The notes under the pieces: generated by a model
Database searches by the model: none
What the model saw: the letters and a program-made list of their open reading frames with translations, nothing else
Told to the model about the DNA's origin: nothing
Part shown: positions 6,636-11,967 of the stretch, one piece after another
Layout of the letters: every line of letters starts with the position of its first letter
Position numbering within the stretch: the stretch's first letter is position 1
Position numbers and translations under genes: made by a program
Origin: Alphaproteobacteria bacterium
Lineage (GTDB): Bacteria > Pseudomonadota > Alphaproteobacteria > Caulobacterales > Aquidulcibacteraceae
Direction of reading: 5' to 3'
Assembly: GCA_016124255.1 (NCBI GenBank)
Contig: WGOB01000035.1
Coordinates: 1 to 44,555 of the forward strand
DNA length: 44,555 nt

Positions 6636-7429
6636 GCACCATGCTCATCGACAGCCACGTGAACCTGCATCACGAGAAGTTCGACGCCGACCGGAGCGAG
6701 GTGATCGCCGCTGCGCGCGCGGCCGGCGTCGGCGTGATGATCACGATCTGCGACCGGATCGAGAACGTCCCGCACGTGCTGGCGATCGCGGAGCGCGACC
6801 CCGACATCTACGCAACGATCGGCGCGCATCCCCACTACGCCAAGGATCACCTTTGGCTGACGCCTGAGCGTCTGATCCAGGATGCGAAGCAGAACCGCGC
6901 CAAGGTCGTCGGCATCGGCGAGACCGGGCTCGACCTGCACTACGGCTTCAGCGCGCTCGACGATCAGGAGCGCGTCTTCCGCGCCCACATCGAAGCCGCG
7001 CGCACGCTCGATCTGCCGCTCATCGTGCACACGCGCGCGGCCGACGACCGCACCGGCGACATTCTCGAAGAAGAGCACGCCAAGGGCGCTTTTCCGCTGC
7101 TGATGCATTGCTACACCAGCGGCGCGGATCTGGCGCGGCGCGCCGTAGCGCTCGGCGGCTACATCTCGTTTTCCGGCATCATGACGTTCAAGAACGCAGC
7201 CGATGTCCGCGCGATTGCGGCAGAGACGCCGCTTGACCGCGTCATCCTGGAAACCGATTGCCCCTACCTCGCGCCTGTGCCGTTTCGAGGCAGGCGCTGC
7301 GAACCGGCGATGGTGGCGGAGGTCTACCGCTTCTTCTGCGCCGAGAGGGGGATCGACACGGAGGAGGGGGCAGCGATCGTCGCGGACAATGTGCACCGCC
7401 TCTTCCGCGCCATTCCAAGGGCCGCGTGA
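6632..7429 (+). CDS. tatD: TatD family metal-dependent deoxyribonuclease
   Basis: TIM-barrel metallo-hydrolase, TatD/YcfH type, implicated in 3'-5' DNA exonuclease activity. 265 residues. Visible motifs are GETGLDLHYGF (metal-binding Glu), PLIVHTRAADDRT, LMHCYTSGADLARRAV and VILETDCPYLAPVPFRGRRCEP. The N-terminal metal motif reads DSHVNLHH, where most TatD proteins have HxH (DSHCHLD): the second His is Asn here. The start overlaps the holB stop by ATGA, and its stop overlaps the next gene by TGATG. In many alphaproteobacteria metG lies between holB and tatD; it is absent here. Confidence 0.9.
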   Translation: MSTMLIDSHVNLHHEKFDADRSEVIAAARAAGVGVMITICDRIENVPHVLAIAERDPDIYATIGAHPHYAKDHLWLTPERLIQDAKQNRAKVVGIGETGLDLHYGFSALDDQERVFRAHIEAARTLDLPLIVHTRAADDRTGDILEEEHAKGAFPLLMHCYTSGADLARRAVALGGYISFSGIMTFKNAADVRAIAAETPLDRVILETDCPYLAPVPFRGRRCEPAMVAEVYRFFCAERGIDTEEGAAIVADNVHRLFRAIPRAA

Positions 7430-8244
7430 TGGGCGCGATCCGCGTCACGATTCTCGGCTGCGGCTCCTCCGGCGGCGTGCCCCGCACGAATGGCGATTGG
7501 GGCGCATGCGATCCGGGCGAACCGCGGAACAAACGCACACGGTGCGGATTGCTGCTGCAGCGCTGGCATGGCGCGCCCGGCGACGCGGCCGACGCCACCA
7601 GCGTCCTGATCGACACCGCGCCCGATCTGCGCGAACAGATGATCGCCGCCGGGGTCCGTCGCCTCGACGCTGTGGTCTACACCCACGATCACGCCGACCA
7701 GGCGCACGGCATCGACGATGTCCGCGCGTTCGTTCTGGCGCAGCGCAAACGCATGCCCGTGTGGATGGACGCACCCACGCGCGCCACGCTGACGCGCCGG
7801 TTTGCGTATTGCTTCTATGGCGAAGGCGGCTATCCGCCGATCCTTGAGGACGCCGGCGCGATCAGGCCGCGCGAAACGTTTCGCATCGACGGCCCGGGCG
7901 GCGCGGTGTCGTTGACGCCGCTGCTGCAGGACCATGGCTTGTCGCAATCGCTGGCGTTCCGCTTCGGCGCCGGCGCGTATTCCAACGACCTGGTCGCGAT
8001 GCCGGAGGAAACCTTCGCCGGTCTCGCCGGCCTCGACCTCTGGATCGTCGACGCGCTCCGCTACACGCCGCATCCGACCCACGCCCATCTTGAGCGTACG
8101 TTGTCCTGGATCGACCGGCTCAAACCGCGCCGCGCGATCCTGACGAACATGCACATCGATATGGACTACCGACGCCTGGCCGCGGACCTGCCGGCGGGCG
8201 TCGAACCAGCGTATGACGGCCTGCAGATCGATCTCGAGGATTAG
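7429..8244 (+). CDS. MBL-fold metallo-hydrolase, PhnP-like
   Basis: Metallo-beta-lactamase-fold phosphodiesterase similar to PhnP (phosphoribosyl 1,2-cyclic phosphate phosphodiesterase), here in the housekeeping tmk-holB-tatD cluster rather than with phosphonate genes. 271 residues. The N-terminus TILGCGSSGGVPR is family-typical; the metal motif THDHADQAHGIDD gives HxHxDH. Later motifs are DHGLSQSLAFRF and NMHIDMDY. I chose the ATG at 7429 because it overlaps the tatD stop (TGATG); the frame is open further upstream but only inside tatD. Substrate unknown; the cluster position is shared by other alphaproteobacteria (from memory). The IS1595 transposon begins 85 bases after the stop. Confidence 0.88.
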   Translation: MGAIRVTILGCGSSGGVPRTNGDWGACDPGEPRNKRTRCGLLLQRWHGAPGDAADATSVLIDTAPDLREQMIAAGVRRLDAVVYTHDHADQAHGIDDVRAFVLAQRKRMPVWMDAPTRATLTRRFAYCFYGEGGYPPILEDAGAIRPRETFRIDGPGGAVSLTPLLQDHGLSQSLAFRFGAGAYSNDLVAMPEETFAGLAGLDLWIVDALRYTPHPTHAHLERTLSWIDRLKPRRAILTNMHIDMDYRRLAADLPAGVEPAYDGLQIDLED

Positions 8245-8321
8245 CCGGGAGTTTGGACTTCATGGCGCGAGTCAGCGGATGCTCGCTTCCGACGGCCTCG
8301 ACGGCCCGCCCCTCAAGGGTC

Positions 8322-8329
8322 ACCGTATT
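8322..8329. repeat. Left copy of 8-bp target-site duplication
   Basis: ACCGTATT directly abuts the left end of the transposon. The identical octamer is at 11088-11095 next to the right end. Eight bases is the usual duplication length of the IS1595 family. Confidence 0.9.
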
Positions 8330-8362
8330 GGCGACGTTACACTTGACAGCCCCAGCCCCAAT
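8330..8362 (+). repeat. Left terminal inverted repeat of the IS1595 element
   Basis: Begins GGCGACGTTACACTTGACAG. Compared with the reverse complement of the right end it differs at positions 1, 3, 17, 19, 26 and 29 of 33. Positions 17 and 19 fall inside the -35 box TTGACA, so only the left end has the consensus -35. Confidence 0.88.
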
Positions 8363-8371
8363 ATCTAGATT
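8343..8371 (+). promoter_or_regulatory. Transposase promoter inside and next to left inverted repeat
   Basis: TTGACA at 8343-8348 and TAGATT at 8366-8371 are separated by 17 bases. The -10 ends six bases before the transposase ATG, which places the expected transcription start at the ATG itself. GGAGG at 8372-8376 is only one base from the ATG, too close to serve as a Shine-Dalgarno sequence, so the mRNA is predicted to be leaderless. Confidence 0.65.
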
Positions 8372-8377
8372 GGAGGC

Positions 8378-9310
8378 ATGGCGAAATCTGTTCTCTCTGC
8401 CCCTCATTTCCAAGACGAAGACGCTGCCTTTGAGTACGTCGAAGCGCGCCTTTGGCCGAACGGCGCGGTCTGCCACCATTGCGGCGCGACTGGCGAGAAA
8501 ATCGGCCGGCTAACCGGCAAGACCGCCCGCGCCGGTCTGCGCAAGTGCTACGCCTGCCGCAAGACGTTCACCGTCCGCATGGGAACAATCTTCGAGTCGT
8601 CGCATCTGCCGCTGCGCTTTTGGCTCCAGGCCATCCACCTGATCTGCTCAAGCAAGAAGGGCATTTCGACCCGCCAAATCCAACGCTTGTTCAAGTGCAG
8701 CATGAAGACGGCGTGGCATCTCATGCACCGCATTCGCTTCGGAATGGAGCCCGCGCCCGGCAGCCCGATGATGGGCGGCGCCGGCCAGCGAGTTGAGGCT
8801 GACGAAACGTTTCTGACGAACTCGCCCAAGACGGAGAAGCGCCAAGGCTATCAGCATAAGATCGCGGTGCTGACGGTTGCGGAGCGCGGCGGTCGCCAGC
8901 GTTCCGTCATGCTCGAACGTTCTCCCGCGCGTCGTGAAATCGGCAGCTTCATCCGCGAGAACGTCGACCCGGAATCCATACTTGTGACCGATGGCGCGCA
9001 GTATTATCGCGCCATCCTTGTGAACCACGAGACGGTCGATCACAGCAAAGACGAGTGGGTGCGGGGCGACGCGCATGTAAACACGCTAGAGGGCTGGTTC
9101 AGCGTGCTGAAAAGAGGGCTGATCGGCACGTATCAGAACGTGAAGGAGAAACACCTTCATCGGTATCTGACCGAGTTCGATTTCCGCCAGAACAACCGCG
9201 AACGCCTTGGCGTTGACGATGAGCAGCGCGCTGAGATCGCCCTTGCTGGCTTCAAGGGTCGCCGCCTCAGCTATACAGCACCTGGTAAACTCGACGCGGG
9301 CGCCAACTAG
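8378..9310 (+). CDS. IS1595-family transposase
   Basis: DDE-type transposase of the IS1595 (ISXO2-like) family that would cut and insert the surrounding element. 310 residues, a normal length. An N-terminal zinc ribbon has cysteines C32, C35, C57 and C60. A helix-turn-helix-like stretch (STRQIQRLFKCSMKTAWHLM) covers residues 97-116. The catalytic domain has D142 in VEADETFL, D205 in LVTDGAQYY and H233/N235/E238 in HVNTLEGWFSVLKRG, the signature of this family. The frame is intact. The start is fixed by the typical MAKSVLSAPHFQDE opening and by the promoter spacing (leaderless). It is the first gene inside the inverted repeats. Confidence 0.95.
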   Translation: MAKSVLSAPHFQDEDAAFEYVEARLWPNGAVCHHCGATGEKIGRLTGKTARAGLRKCYACRKTFTVRMGTIFESSHLPLRFWLQAIHLICSSKKGISTRQIQRLFKCSMKTAWHLMHRIRFGMEPAPGSPMMGGAGQRVEADETFLTNSPKTEKRQGYQHKIAVLTVAERGGRQRSVMLERSPARREIGSFIRENVDPESILVTDGAQYYRAILVNHETVDHSKDEWVRGDAHVNTLEGWFSVLKRGLIGTYQNVKEKHLHRYLTEFDFRQNNRERLGVDDEQRAEIALAGFKGRRLSYTAPGKLDAGAN

Positions 9311-9390
9311 GACCAAGCCCCGCAAACGGCGCGCGAAACGCAAGAAGAATTCTGAAGACCCTGGCGATTCCGCCTAAACAAGGGATGTGG

Positions 9391-9396
9391 TATAGT
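9391..9396 (+). promoter_or_regulatory. Candidate -10 box for the cargo operon
   Basis: TATAGT lies six bases before the ATG at 9403, the same -10-to-ATG distance as at the transposase gene, so a leaderless transcript is possible. The -35 position (TTCCGC, 17 bases upstream) is poor, so the promoter would be weak or need help. Confidence 0.4.
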
Positions 9397-9402
9397 CTTT
9401 CG

Positions 9403-10284
9403 ATGGCGAAGCCTAAGGACCCCGCGTCTAGGCGCGTAGTGATCACCGTAGAACCTACGGAGGCGCACGGCGGAAAGCCGCGTGTTGAAGAGGTCATGCA
9501 GCAGGTCTTGGACTTCCTGCGCGTTGCGGAGGACGCCAAAGCACATCTCGGTTGGTCAGGTTTCGACTTTGATTGGCGGCTGGAAAAAGCGTCCACGAAC
9601 TCGCCATTTAGCCTCACGGCTATCGCCGAGCCAGTCGCCGACATTCCTGTCGCGTCTATTGTAGCCCATGTCGATGAAGTCGAGCGCGTAGCGGTTGGGG
9701 CCTTTAAGGACCTTGCGCGCGGCCTGCCGATGCCATCCTGGCTTTCGCAGGACGGAGCCGCGTCGCTCGCTCAATTGCACCGGCGTGCGCTGAACGGCAT
9801 CCGAACAACCCGATTTGATTTCGGCGGCGCCGTAGGCAGGATTGAGGTTGCCGCAGAGCAAGCCACGAACGCACTCTCCGTGTTGGAGCGCGCAACAGCA
9901 ACAGCGCCAGAACAGTTCCCGTACCGCGTCGCTCACGGCGAAATCGATGGCCGAATGGTCTCGGTGGCTAGGTGGCGCAACTACCCAGCTATCCAAATAA
10001 CCAACGCAGCGTACGGACTCATCTGGTGCGTTCTGACTGAGCGGCAAATGGAGCAGTTTGGAGGCGAGCAGACTCTTTCGGATGTGTGGCGCGGACGGCG
10101 AGTAAGCGTTCCAGGTCGGATTTACTATGGGCAGAACGGCAAACCAACGCGGATCGAAGCTATCGATATTCGCGCGAAGGAAGTTCCTGAGGTGCAGATC
10201 GAAGACGTGCTAGACGCGGACTTCACTGGCGGCTTGAGCCCGGTCGAGTACCTGGACAAATTGCACGAGGGCCGTCTTGGCTAG
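9403..10284 (+). CDS. Transposon cargo protein of unknown function (partner of PIN protein)
   Basis: I do not recognise this 293-residue protein. It has no signal peptide or membrane segment. The N-terminus is basic (MAKPKDPASRR), followed by a predicted helix (RVEEVMQQVLDFLRVAEDA), mixed alpha/beta sequence, and a C-terminal part (about residues 190-290) rich in beta strands: VSVARWRNYPAIQITN, GLIWCVLTERQMEQFG, RVSVPGRIYYGQNGKPTRIE, ending in acidic sequence. An ATG at 9385 would add six residues, but the -10-like TATAGT lies between the two. Its stop overlaps the start of the PIN-domain gene by 8 bases, so the two are translationally coupled. By position it could be an antitoxin or regulator of the PIN protein; that is inference, and it is much larger than a usual VapB. 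Confidence 0.75.
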   Translation: MAKPKDPASRRVVITVEPTEAHGGKPRVEEVMQQVLDFLRVAEDAKAHLGWSGFDFDWRLEKASTNSPFSLTAIAEPVADIPVASIVAHVDEVERVAVGAFKDLARGLPMPSWLSQDGAASLAQLHRRALNGIRTTRFDFGGAVGRIEVAAEQATNALSVLERATATAPEQFPYRVAHGEIDGRMVSVARWRNYPAIQITNAAYGLIWCVLTERQMEQFGGEQTLSDVWRGRRVSVPGRIYYGQNGKPTRIEAIDIRAKEVPEVQIEDVLDADFTGGLSPVEYLDKLHEGRLG

Positions 10285-10813
10285 GCGCGTCTATTGGGAC
10301 TCGTGTTGTTTCCTCGGGCTCATCAATCCCACCGAAGCGAAGCACGCCGACTGCATGGCGGTGTGGAGGGAAGCAACGCAACGCAAAACGACAATCATTA
10401 CGTCCTACTGGACCTTTGCTGAGGTCTTCAAAGCCAAATGCGAGGGCACCGCCAAGCCACTGGATGAGCAGGGAGACGCAAAGATTGAGGCGCTACTTCT
10501 TCAGCGCTGGATTGAGCCCGTCCTCGTGGATGAGCGGATTGGCACATACGCACGACGTCTGATGCGACTGCACCCGGAGTGCAAGAAACCAACCGATGCA
10601 GTGCATCTCGCCAGCGCCTTGGTGGTTGGGCCAGATGAAATGCATACCTACGACGGTTCAGATTTGTTACATTTGGACGGAAAAATTCTAGCCGTGAACA
10701 CGCGCCCTTTGGTTATCTGCACGGCGCGGCCTACCCCTCCGCCACCGCCGCCTCCGGCGCCGTTGTTGGACGAATTGGAAAAGGACGAGGGCAAAGAAAA
10801 AGACGCCACCTGA
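10277..10813 (+). CDS. PIN-domain protein (VapC-like ribonuclease), transposon cargo
   Basis: Predicted metal-dependent ribonuclease with a PIN fold, as in VapC toxins. 178 residues. The four acidic positions are present: D8 (VYWDSC), E49 (TFAEVF), D107 (KPTDAVHLASAL) and D126 (TYDGSDLL). After residue 150 comes an unusual tail with a seven-proline run and an acidic/lysine end (LDELEKDEGKEKDAT), not part of a normal VapC. The start is a TTG at 10277 that overlaps the preceding gene; GAGGG lies just upstream and no other start precedes the first catalytic Asp. The target RNA is unknown. Toxicity is not shown by sequence. Confidence 0.85.
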   Translation: MARRVYWDSCCFLGLINPTEAKHADCMAVWREATQRKTTIITSYWTFAEVFKAKCEGTAKPLDEQGDAKIEALLLQRWIEPVLVDERIGTYARRLMRLHPECKKPTDAVHLASALVVGPDEMHTYDGSDLLHLDGKILAVNTRPLVICTARPTPPPPPPPAPLLDELEKDEGKEKDAT

Positions 10814-10841
10814 CTAGCAAATCGGATTACCGTCCAGGCGC

Positions 10842-11030
10842 ATGCCTAAGAAGGAAGTCTCAGCCCAGAAGTCGACCGCGAAGCGGGGACGCAAGCAGGC
10901 ACCGCGCGGCAAGACCGATCCAGAACAGCACGAGCGATTTTTGGAGACCGCGATGGAGGCGGACGCCAGCGACGATCCGAAGGCGTTCGACCGCGCGTTT
11001 GAGCGGATCGCCAAATCACCTAAGGAATGA
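10842..11030 (+). CDS. Small basic protein of unknown function, transposon cargo
   Basis: 62 residues. The first 25 are lysine/arginine rich (MPKKEVSAQKSTAKRGRKQ), which could bind nucleic acid; the rest is charged and helical (HERFLETAMEADASDD, FDRAFERIAK). It lies 28 bases after the PIN gene, on the same strand and inside the inverted repeats, so it is probably the last gene of the cargo unit. I recognise no family. Its short length leaves some doubt that it is translated; a weak AGG is the only ribosome-binding candidate. Confidence 0.55.
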   Translation: MPKKEVSAQKSTAKRGRKQAPRGKTDPEQHERFLETAMEADASDDPKAFDRAFERIAKSPKE

Positions 11031-11054
11031 CGGCAAGCACCGGAATGACCAGTA

Positions 11055-11087
11055 ATTGTGGATGGGGCGGCCAAGTGTAACGTCCCG
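11055..11087 (-). repeat. Right terminal inverted repeat of the IS1595 element
   Basis: Read on the minus strand from 11087 it begins CGGGACGTTACACTTGGCCG and matches the left end at 27 of 33 positions. The -35-like hexamer here is TTGGCC, so it lacks the promoter seen at the left end. Confidence 0.88.
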
Positions 11088-11095
11088 ACCGTATT
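11088..11095. repeat. Right copy of 8-bp target-site duplication
   Basis: ACCGTATT, identical to 8322-8329. It lies 29 bases before the mazG start codon. Confidence 0.9.
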
Positions 11096-11124
11096 TCCCA
11101 TAATCTATCTTATGCGAGAAACCG

Positions 11125-11967
11125 ATGGATGCGCGTAAGGCCCTGAATAGCCAGGGAAATCACTCCGCAGTCGAGCAAGAGGCGCGCACCGCCCGCGCGG
11201 TGGCCGATCTCCTGGCGCTGATGGCCAAGCTGCGCGACCCGGACGGCGGTTGCCCATGGGACCTTGAACAGACGTTCGCGACCATTGCGCCGTACACGAT
11301 CGAAGAAGCCTATGAGGTGGCCGATGCGATCCAGCGCGGCGCGATGGGCGATCTCAAGGAGGAGCTGGGCGACCTCCTCTTCCAGGTCGTCTTTCACGCG
11401 CGCATGGCCGAGGAGGCCGGCCAGTTCGATTTCACCGAGGTCGCCGAGACGCTGACCGCGAAGATGAAGCGGCGCCACCCGCACGTCTTCCTCGCCGCCG
11501 ACAATCGCAGCGCCGCCGAGCAGACCCGCGCCTGGGAAGATCAGAAGGCCGCGGAACGCGCCGCAAAGCGCACCGGGCTTCTCGACGATGTGCCGATGGC
11601 GCTGCCGGCGCTCCAGCGCGCGGAGAAGCTCACAAAGCGCGCCGCGCGGATCGGCTTCGATTGGCCGACCCCCGAAGCCGTTCTTGAGAAGCTCGACGAA
11701 GAACTCGGCGAGGTCGCCGACGCCCGCGCCGAGGGCGACAAGGCAGCCATCGCGGAAGAGATCGGCGACGCCCTCTTCGTCATGGCCAACCTCGCCCGGA
11801 AGCTCGACGTCGATCCCGAGGAGGCGTTGCGCCAGGCCAATGCGAAGTTCGTGCGCCGCTTCGGCCATATCGAGCGCCGCCTGGCCGAAACCGGCCGCAC
11901 AGGGCCTCAGCCGCTCGATGAGCTCGAGGCGTTGTGGCAGGCGGCCAAGCGCGCGGAAAAATCCTAG
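11125..11967 (+). CDS. mazG: Nucleoside triphosphate pyrophosphohydrolase MazG
   Basis: Hydrolyses (d)NTPs to NMP and pyrophosphate, a house-cleaning enzyme that can also lower ppGpp by depleting precursors. 280 residues with two MazG-type repeats. The first half shows CPWDLEQTFATIAPYTIEEAYEVADAI and EELGDLLFQVVFHARMAEE; the second shows EELGEVADARAEGD and EEIGDALFVMANLARKL, giving the EExx...ExxD metal-binding pattern. The ATG at 11125 has only a weak GAG upstream. The right end of the transposon is 37 bases upstream, so the native promoter may have been separated. The TAG stop is the first three bases of the palindrome that follows. Confidence 0.93.
   Translation: MDARKALNSQGNHSAVEQEARTARAVADLLALMAKLRDPDGGCPWDLEQTFATIAPYTIEEAYEVADAIQRGAMGDLKEELGDLLFQVVFHARMAEEAGQFDFTEVAETLTAKMKRRHPHVFLAADNRSAAEQTRAWEDQKAAERAAKRTGLLDDVPMALPALQRAEKLTKRAARIGFDWPTPEAVLEKLDEELGEVADARAEGDKAAIAEEIGDALFVMANLARKLDVDPEEALRQANAKFVRRFGHIERRLAETGRTGPQPLDELEALWQAAKRAEKS

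Follow-up and report, generated by a model that had tools for sequence, protein, structure and literature searches.

How does a small transposon with genes of its own choose where to land, and is the same choice made more than once? The question is raised by an IS1595-family element in contig WGOB01000035.1 (positions 1–44,555; assembly GCA_016124255.1), a 44,555-nucleotide stretch of DNA that is called the window here; codes beginning with G or L stand for other genomes and loci. The first-pass annotation of the window overlooked that the right flank of this element is a dif site, the place where cells untangle duplicated chromosomes. Considered together with its relatives, the element is very probably an IS1595-family unit transposon (a "transporter insertion sequence", or tIS) from a clade that targets this chromosome-dimer-resolution site. 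The element and its right flank are laid out as follows.

8322–8329, strand not applicable: left copy of the 8-bp target-site duplication, sequence ACCGTATT
8330–11087: IS1595-family transposon, 2,758 bp, four genes
8330–8362, plus strand: left terminal inverted repeat, matching the right repeat at 27/33 positions
8378–9310, plus strand: IS1595-family transposase, 310 amino acids (aa), intact frame (Pfam PF12762/PF12760, NCBIfam NF033547)
11055–11087, minus strand: right terminal inverted repeat, matching the left repeat at 27/33 positions
11088–11095, strand not applicable: right copy of the duplication, ACCGTATT, its last 3 bp being the outer 3 bp of a dif arm
11093–11120, minus strand: chromosomal dif, 28 bp, read from C to D on the minus strand as TTCTCGCATAA GATAGA TTATGGGAAAT
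11125–11967, plus strand: mazG homologue (by homology), the first gene past dif; the name is presumed

The earlier description of a complete IS1595-family transposon with passenger genes was borne out to the base in its ends, its intact transposase and its duplication, and the coordinates of the repeats, the perfect duplication and the 2.76-kb, four-gene unit all stood. A repeat search recovers a 30-nt inverted pair (8333–8362/11055–11084) that is 87% complementary, and the G+C content falls from about 0.63–0.72 outside the element to 0.57–0.62 within it. The four open reading frames (transposase, a protein called HYP here, a PIN-domain protein and a small protein) all lie on the same strand. 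Matches of the transposase to the Pfam DDE_Tnp_IS1595 domain (2.2e-28), a zinc ribbon (2.4e-9) and NCBIfam NF033547 (181 bits, cut-off 75) place it in the family, as do the ISXO2-like DDE domain with its zinc ribbon and the imperfect terminal inverted repeats with an 8-bp duplication, both of the latter being features of IS1595 elements. A string search also found the acidic motifs VEADETF, VTDGAQYY and NTLEG, which we take to be catalytic.

The element is more than a chance arrangement, because homologous elements with perfect duplications of their own exist elsewhere and two congeners (G003 and G001) are empty at this place. Loci L006 (duplication AATCGGAA) and L007 (AGTAGCCT) each hold a homologous transposase with genes of the 293-aa and PIN types, and the earlier suggestion to look for the same cargo between other duplications led to cargo of the same type at L023 and L029 as well. 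The idea of a recent insertion fits the perfect duplication. An empty site reading the duplicated sequence once had also been expected. The congeners do lack the element there and no genome seen reads ACCGTATT once; their empty sites read GGTACATT and TTCGCGTT, since the flank varies between species.

On the forward strand the right flank contains ATTTCCCATAA TCTATC TTATGCGAGAA, that is, two 11-bp inverted arms around a 6-bp centre. The minus strand has the same XerC–XerD layout as published alphaproteobacterial dif sites such as that of Brucella (TAATCGCATAAGATAGATTATGGAACTG), as given in Table 1 of PMC2731167, the part of that source drawn on here. A search for the inner 22-mer, with up to three mismatches allowed, gave a single hit per genome in 45 of the 60 family genomes, and a reversed control gave none; elsewhere there is one copy each in G326, G421, G497, G205 and G466, and two in G425. 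In the single-contig genome G044 the site lies at 2.18 of 4.18 Mb, where the GC skew, read in ten 20-kb stretches, drops from positive to negative values no more than about 10 kb away. On homology, single copy and terminus position in one complete genome, the 28-bp sequence is thus identified as chromosomal dif, at which Xer recombination is predicted. By this reading of the sequence, the element would adjoin the XerD-like arm (11093–11103) across a 5-bp gap (11088–11092).

Several observations weigh against this identification. The other 15 of the 60 family genomes have no match to the 22-mer, the skew around the site of G039 (at 1.92 of 3.86 Mb) is irregular, and within the 44.6-kb window the skew keeps its sign across 11.1 kb. 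The site's conservation could also partly reflect a mazG control region: among 30 dif loci, 23 have both a metallo-β-lactamase (MBL)-fold gene and mazG nearby, two have mazG alone (both element-bearing), four have the MBL gene alone and one has neither. It could thus be proposed that the conserved 28 bp are mazG regulatory DNA and not dif at all, as mazG is close by in 25 of the 30 loci, the window lacks a skew switch, and the group also targets a palindrome upstream of rplM (described below), itself a plausible control site. That proposal is hard to square with the paired 11-bp arms and 6-bp centre, the match to published dif sites and the single copy; nor does it suit the skew switch and mid-chromosome place in G044, or the five loci where mazG was not found nearby (L106–L109, none within 1.5 kb; L100, neither gene in the 1.6 kb examined). 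We consider it highly improbable.

Given that the site is dif, the next matter is how often elements of this kind lie beside it. Transposase searches gave matches in 21 of 60 genomes of the family (1e-40), 39 of 385 of the class (1e-60), 4 of 7 of family f61 (1e-90) and 17 of 398 of the order (1e-88). Ends were sought at 66 loci, HYP loci included, of which L083 and L084 lack a transposase and L032 holds only fragments. The 48 resolved elements comprise 34 past the threshold, seven set by hand with looser ends, one more, and six of 13 from the order search; within f61, dif was examined in five of seven genomes, with G757 and G758 left out. Six of the 48 elements with both ends and a duplication resolved adjoin dif (the window, G002, G205, G326, G759 and G466), against a background of one 28-bp site per 2.9–5.1 Mb genome.

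Two further ends point the same way, namely one end at dif followed by a contig end in G421 and a lone end at dif in G497; these were placed by terminal-repeat likeness alone, and they enter the geometry below and not the count of six in 48. All eight ends, from eight genomes of three bacterial families, have one layout: past the IS end come 8 bp, then 3 bp, then CATAA-N6-TTAT. The element thus ends 5 bp from an 11-bp Xer arm in 8/8 cases; the arm's outer 3 bp fall within the duplication, which leaves dif whole. By our reading of the arms, the window, G002, G205 and G466 lie on the XerD side and the other four on the XerC side, while the end facing dif is the right one in five cases and the left one in three (the G497 end being named by likeness).

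The transposases of these elements are largely of one lineage. In a first tree, five dif rows formed one clade (SH-aLRT 88) with G466 apart on a long branch, and the dif label changed only twice against a shuffled mean of 5.8, with 0 of 500 shuffles as low. Adding G759 gave a six-row dif clade (SH-aLRT 93); the shuffle test on this later tree covers dif and rplM rows only, and for dif 29 of 500 shuffles were as low. Against this stands that dif is not the target of every near relative: no dif motif was found at the near relatives G425 (59% identity), G011, G059, G288 and G386, nor in the stretches fetched around the 13 order-search transposases (49–53% identity).

Side, end and duplication also bear on whether insertion at dif has been repeated. 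The duplications of the six elements are ACCGTATT, GGTATATT, TAGGTTTA, CCTCTATA, AATTCATT and AATGTCTA, alike within a genome and different between genomes. Insertion has recurred, because both arms and both ends have been used and the duplications differ. The left flank of the G759 element moreover resembles the terminal repeat of an older element, like the lone end in G497, at the same bond.

The closest comparison is with the congener G002, where an element whose ends are of the same kind occupies the same place; it has a 90% identical transposase and its own perfect duplication, GGTATATT. Here a single event has something in its favor, since the divergence at four-fold sites between the two genomes (transposase 0.41, TatD 0.42, MBL 0.61, mazG 0.80) is such as one ancestral insertion could give. 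It may be supposed more generally that each family inherited one ancient insertion beside dif and later swapped its cargo by recombination, with little targeting involved; the transposase divergence of the window and G002 is indeed like that of one host gene, and side and orientation are equal both in this pair and in G326 and G759. The duplications of the window and G002 differ at four of eight positions while matching within each genome, and for this pair it is only these duplications and the different cargo that argue for two events. A single inheritance also fails to account for family f61, where G205, G421 and G326 use opposite ends and arms, for the two insertions at one bond in G759, and for the distant transposase of G466; on the whole it appears unlikely, and repeated insertion at dif is the better account.

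Targeting by these transposons is not confined to dif. Five elements (loci L162, L168, L247, L248 and L251) lie upstream of rplM–rpsI, two of them (G288 and G386) being the sister pair of the dif clade and the others a separate trio (G676, G747 and G079); of the 13 order-search transposases, ends were resolved for six, and three of these are at the rplM site. In 5/5 cases the element end is followed by 8 bp, then by 2 or 3 bp, then by a palindrome of the form GGTA-N6-(T/A)ACC (GGTATTATAATACC, GGTATAATAATACC or GGTAGGATATAACC), and rplM is present at these five alone among the 79 loci scanned. The genes rplM and rpsI were named by the look of their proteins, and the palindrome is known here from element-bearing loci alone. 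As it is not a Xer site and yet has nearly the same spacing, it weakens the case for Xer as the contact of the transposase; a direct reading of the palindrome, or docking on various proteins, is therefore as probable as a special tie to Xer.

Hairpins are another kind of target that was considered. Stems centred on the insertion reached p ≤ 0.01 in 4 of 34 targets (0.34 expected), with p values of 0.002 for G011 and 0.066 for G059. Insertion at hairpin centres was rejected as a general rule, since no more than those four targets reach this level and all four dif targets tested fall short of it (window 0.87, G002 0.52, G326 0.996, G466 0.46). As a separate observation, the IS1595 elements at L085, L086, L167, L175 and L183 sit inside G+C-rich hairpins that resemble REP elements or terminators.

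To our knowledge, targeting of dif by a DDE transposase has been described only for IS1202-type elements, and no IS1595 element at dif was reported in the titles and abstract openings of the papers listed by searches on IS1595, dif and XerC, with unlisted and subscription papers outside their reach. In the portion of PMC10132070 available, the ISAjo2 group of the IS1202 family is presented as "dif site hunters" that insert next to chromosomal dif or plasmid pdif, 5 bp away from its XerC site; these are 1.5-kb elements with a 441–457-aa Tn7 TnsB-like transposase and a 5-bp duplication (3–5 bp in the dif-targeting group). A text search of that paper found no mention of IS1595. As far as this portion goes, the IS1202 hunters and the clade of the window have in common the 5-bp gap to a Xer arm, an intact dif and several insertions, whereas the hunters use the XerC side in one orientation with no cargo mentioned, and the window clade uses either arm and either end and carries cargo. 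The transposase and duplication are not those of IS1202 either: the window element has a 310-aa IS1595 transposase, and the clade has an 8-bp duplication and a length of 2.1–2.8 kb.

These comparisons suggest how the site might be recognized. The transposition complex would find dif through the Xer recombinase on its arm, or by reading the palindrome directly, and would make an 8-bp staggered cut 5 bp outside the 11-bp arm, leaving the 28-bp site intact. Recognition through a bound protein (at dif, Xer) is favored because the same 5 bp recur in an unrelated family and because either arm and either end are used; direct reading is favored because of the rplM site. In its full form, direct reading would mean that the transposases measure a fixed distance from conserved AT-rich palindromes, of which dif is one, with no Xer protein involved. 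The five rplM-side elements of two other clades and the four hairpin targets among 34 speak for it, while each clade keeps to its own palindrome, as docking on different proteins would also give, and centred stems are wanting at the four dif targets tested and in 30 of the 34 targets overall. We hold direct reading to be a serious contender, just short of evenly balanced. Under either form of recognition, dif would be a safe landing place that is present in most related genomes. Other clades use the rplM–rpsI palindrome at nearly the same spacing, so seeking out conserved palindromes may be more widespread.

What these elements bring to their landing site varies, as is first apparent from the remaining genes of the window element.

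9403–10284, plus strand: first cargo gene, HYP, 293 aa, with no family match; its model has an OB-fold-like domain at about 170–261 and a conserved C-terminal tail
10277–10813, plus strand: second cargo gene, PIN-domain protein (Pfam PIN), 178 aa, with a TTG start overlapping the end of HYP
10842–11030, plus strand: small 62-aa gene, probably of the backbone, with relatives in other elements

A profile of the 62-aa protein found relatives in 21 of 42 elements (a subset of the 48; seven of the 21 had seeded the profile), also beside unrelated cargo, and none in 298 kb of flank. The small gene is therefore counted as probably part of the transposon's own machinery and not as cargo. DNA homology between the window and G002 covers 8325–9269 and 10911–11118, and the middle is not homologous; in its place G002 has a different pair of 245 aa and 202 aa, the latter matching PIN below threshold (15.3 bits, cut-off 23.6), and a single-sequence structure prediction for the partner was unusable (pLDDT 37). 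Likewise, G326 and G759 have a common backbone (85% over 1.2 kb, and 88% over a 124-bp stretch across the right end and dif) with different cargo, a 313-aa protein resembling HEPN by eye, without a Pfam match, in the one and a 300-aa protein resembling DUF3800 by eye in the other. By sequence comparison, then, two genome pairs show a common backbone with different cargo.

The cargo of G205 matches Pfam HEPN (22.6 bits, cut-off 22), and other elements carry a PIN_10 protein, a DUF3800 protein (Pfam) or, in several cases, a protein with an R-x4-H motif seen by eye, which we take to be HEPN-like. Among ten proteins scanned, five were without any Pfam match at E ≤ 0.1 and a sixth had only an implausible one below its cut-off, so the toxin-like label holds for part of the cargo only.

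Some of this is familiar. Passenger genes are known in IS1595 elements (tIS such as ISNha5; PMC11891212, citing Siguier 2009), and Tn3-family transposons are known to exchange toxin–antitoxin pairs, with PIN and HEPN among the toxins (PMC7157771). The elements described here have transposase family, terminal repeats, 8-bp duplication and passenger genes in common with the tIS, and differ in carrying PIN or HEPN-like cargo and no transcription regulator. As far as the consulted portion of the Tn3 source goes, they have exchangeable toxin modules in common with that family, while transposase and mechanism are unrelated and the presumed partner of the window's toxin-like protein belongs to no known family. 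The lineage of the window thus belongs to IS1595 and behaves like the dif hunters of IS1202 although it is not one of them, and its cargo is exchangeable and partly toxin-like.

The cargo of the window itself recalls the VapBC type II systems, in which a PIN toxin is encoded directly behind, and overlapping, its partner gene. The PIN gene does follow and overlap HYP, its product matches Pfam PIN (25.3 bits, cut-off 23.6), and the acidic residues D8, E49, D107 and D126 are invariant in 4/4 aligned homologues. Unlike VapB, HYP has about 290 aa, a probable OB-fold and no VapB family match; scans of Pfam, NCBIfam and PADLOC at E ≤ 1 gave nothing for it or for the 62-aa protein, so a partner from a known antitoxin family was not found. 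A structure model of HYP from 11 sequences is of moderate quality (pLDDT 79.3, pTM 0.51). For the domain at 170–261, Foldseek gave a best E of 6.8e-4 with a TM-score of 0.20 on the query, and VIA gave a best Z of 8.8 over 82 residues (root-mean-square deviation 3.4) with the single-stranded DNA-binding protein 4dam_L. The middling model and the nearness of matches up to Z 8.8 to background both tell against the assignment, so that an OB-fold in HYP is suggested by the model but not strongly. The C-terminal tail is among the most conserved parts of HYP; a region of this sort might be what an antitoxin uses to hold a PIN toxin.

The pair is sparsely spread. HYP has one copy in the host genome. 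Searches matched it in 3 of 150 relatives, in 12 of 385 class genomes (five of these with weak, partial matches) and in 5 of 299 of the window's order, counts that each include the window's own genome, and in 3 of 82 genomes of the order of G494. Annotated plasmids gave one record for HYP and one for PIN, both Methylobacterium oryzae pMOC1; phage records gave no HYP match at 1e-5, and viral contigs none with the single protein as query and three with an alignment. One of the loci, L023 (3901–6563), is a HYP–PIN IS1595 element on an IMG/VR viral contig with the perfect duplication GCGAACTT. A PIN gene stands beside HYP in all 24 loci examined, these having been picked by HYP, with L008 and L038 one place and several stretches short; an IS1595 transposase accompanies the pair in seven, and there is none in the available stretch in 17. 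Judged from these sequences, HYP–PIN is a two-gene module found also outside IS1595 elements and borne by several of them, on pMOC1, on a viral contig and in G083, G429, G165 and G446. The first-pass annotation had held that its reading would fall if the four genes turned up without the inverted repeats; this is partly true of two of them, the 293-aa/PIN pair, and the pairs without a transposase are distant relatives (about 24–43% identity over the main matched part), not the window element minus its ends.

With less confidence than the targeting, then, HYP–PIN may be a toxin–antitoxin-like module in which PIN would act as an RNase and HYP as an OB-fold partner whose conserved tail covers PIN; it would stabilize the element or defend the host, while the backbone of transposase and small gene is kept and cargos are swapped. 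The pair might instead be an anti-phage or host-control module that merely hitch-hikes, with no role in keeping the element. The 17 loci without a transposase and the unrelated cargo of other elements fit such a passenger; the seven of 24 loci where an IS1595 transposase accompanies it do not, and a specific anti-phage label was set aside, as PADLOC gave no match for the window's four proteins, which were those scanned. Hitch-hiking is quite conceivable, although we lean somewhat away from it.

Other observations concern the family and the window more broadly. The host genome has one further IS1595 transposase, 50% identical and with other cargo around it. Its second IS1595-family element, on contig C62 of G000 (L009), has an inverted repeat about 3.6 kb apart, an imperfect duplication, an internal open reading frame that by eye resembles a Clp/SDH-type serine protease, and no dif motif in the available stretch. 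At L170 (about 7020–9970 as oriented), two elements of the same lineage point in opposite directions and either adjoin or overlap; their duplications are CTTAAAAA and TTTTAAGG. The apparent ends at L088 and L093 begin CGATATAG and are flanked by palindromes of the GTGACC-N2-GTCAC type; these transposases perhaps form a subgroup with another duplication length. A tRNA-Ser gene (anticodon tga) at 2656–2745 on the minus strand of the window has no link to the element.

Taken more widely, alphaproteobacterial IS1595 clades may home to conserved palindromes at a fixed distance (one clade to dif, two to rplM–rpsI), probably by docking on a bound protein, so that these sites serve as shared landing pads for the repeated arrival and stacking of exchangeable toxin-like (PIN, HEPN) cargo; we put this forward tentatively, with a little less than half our confidence behind it. 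A second, unrelated family at the 5-bp spacing, together with sister clades at another palindrome, would suggest that a general rule is at work, for instance docking on a host protein bound there, and makes that rule testable. The findings also mark the chromosome terminus as a place where small transposons with cargo land again and again; the insertion point beside dif, being site-specific and widely conserved, may be of use in genome engineering.

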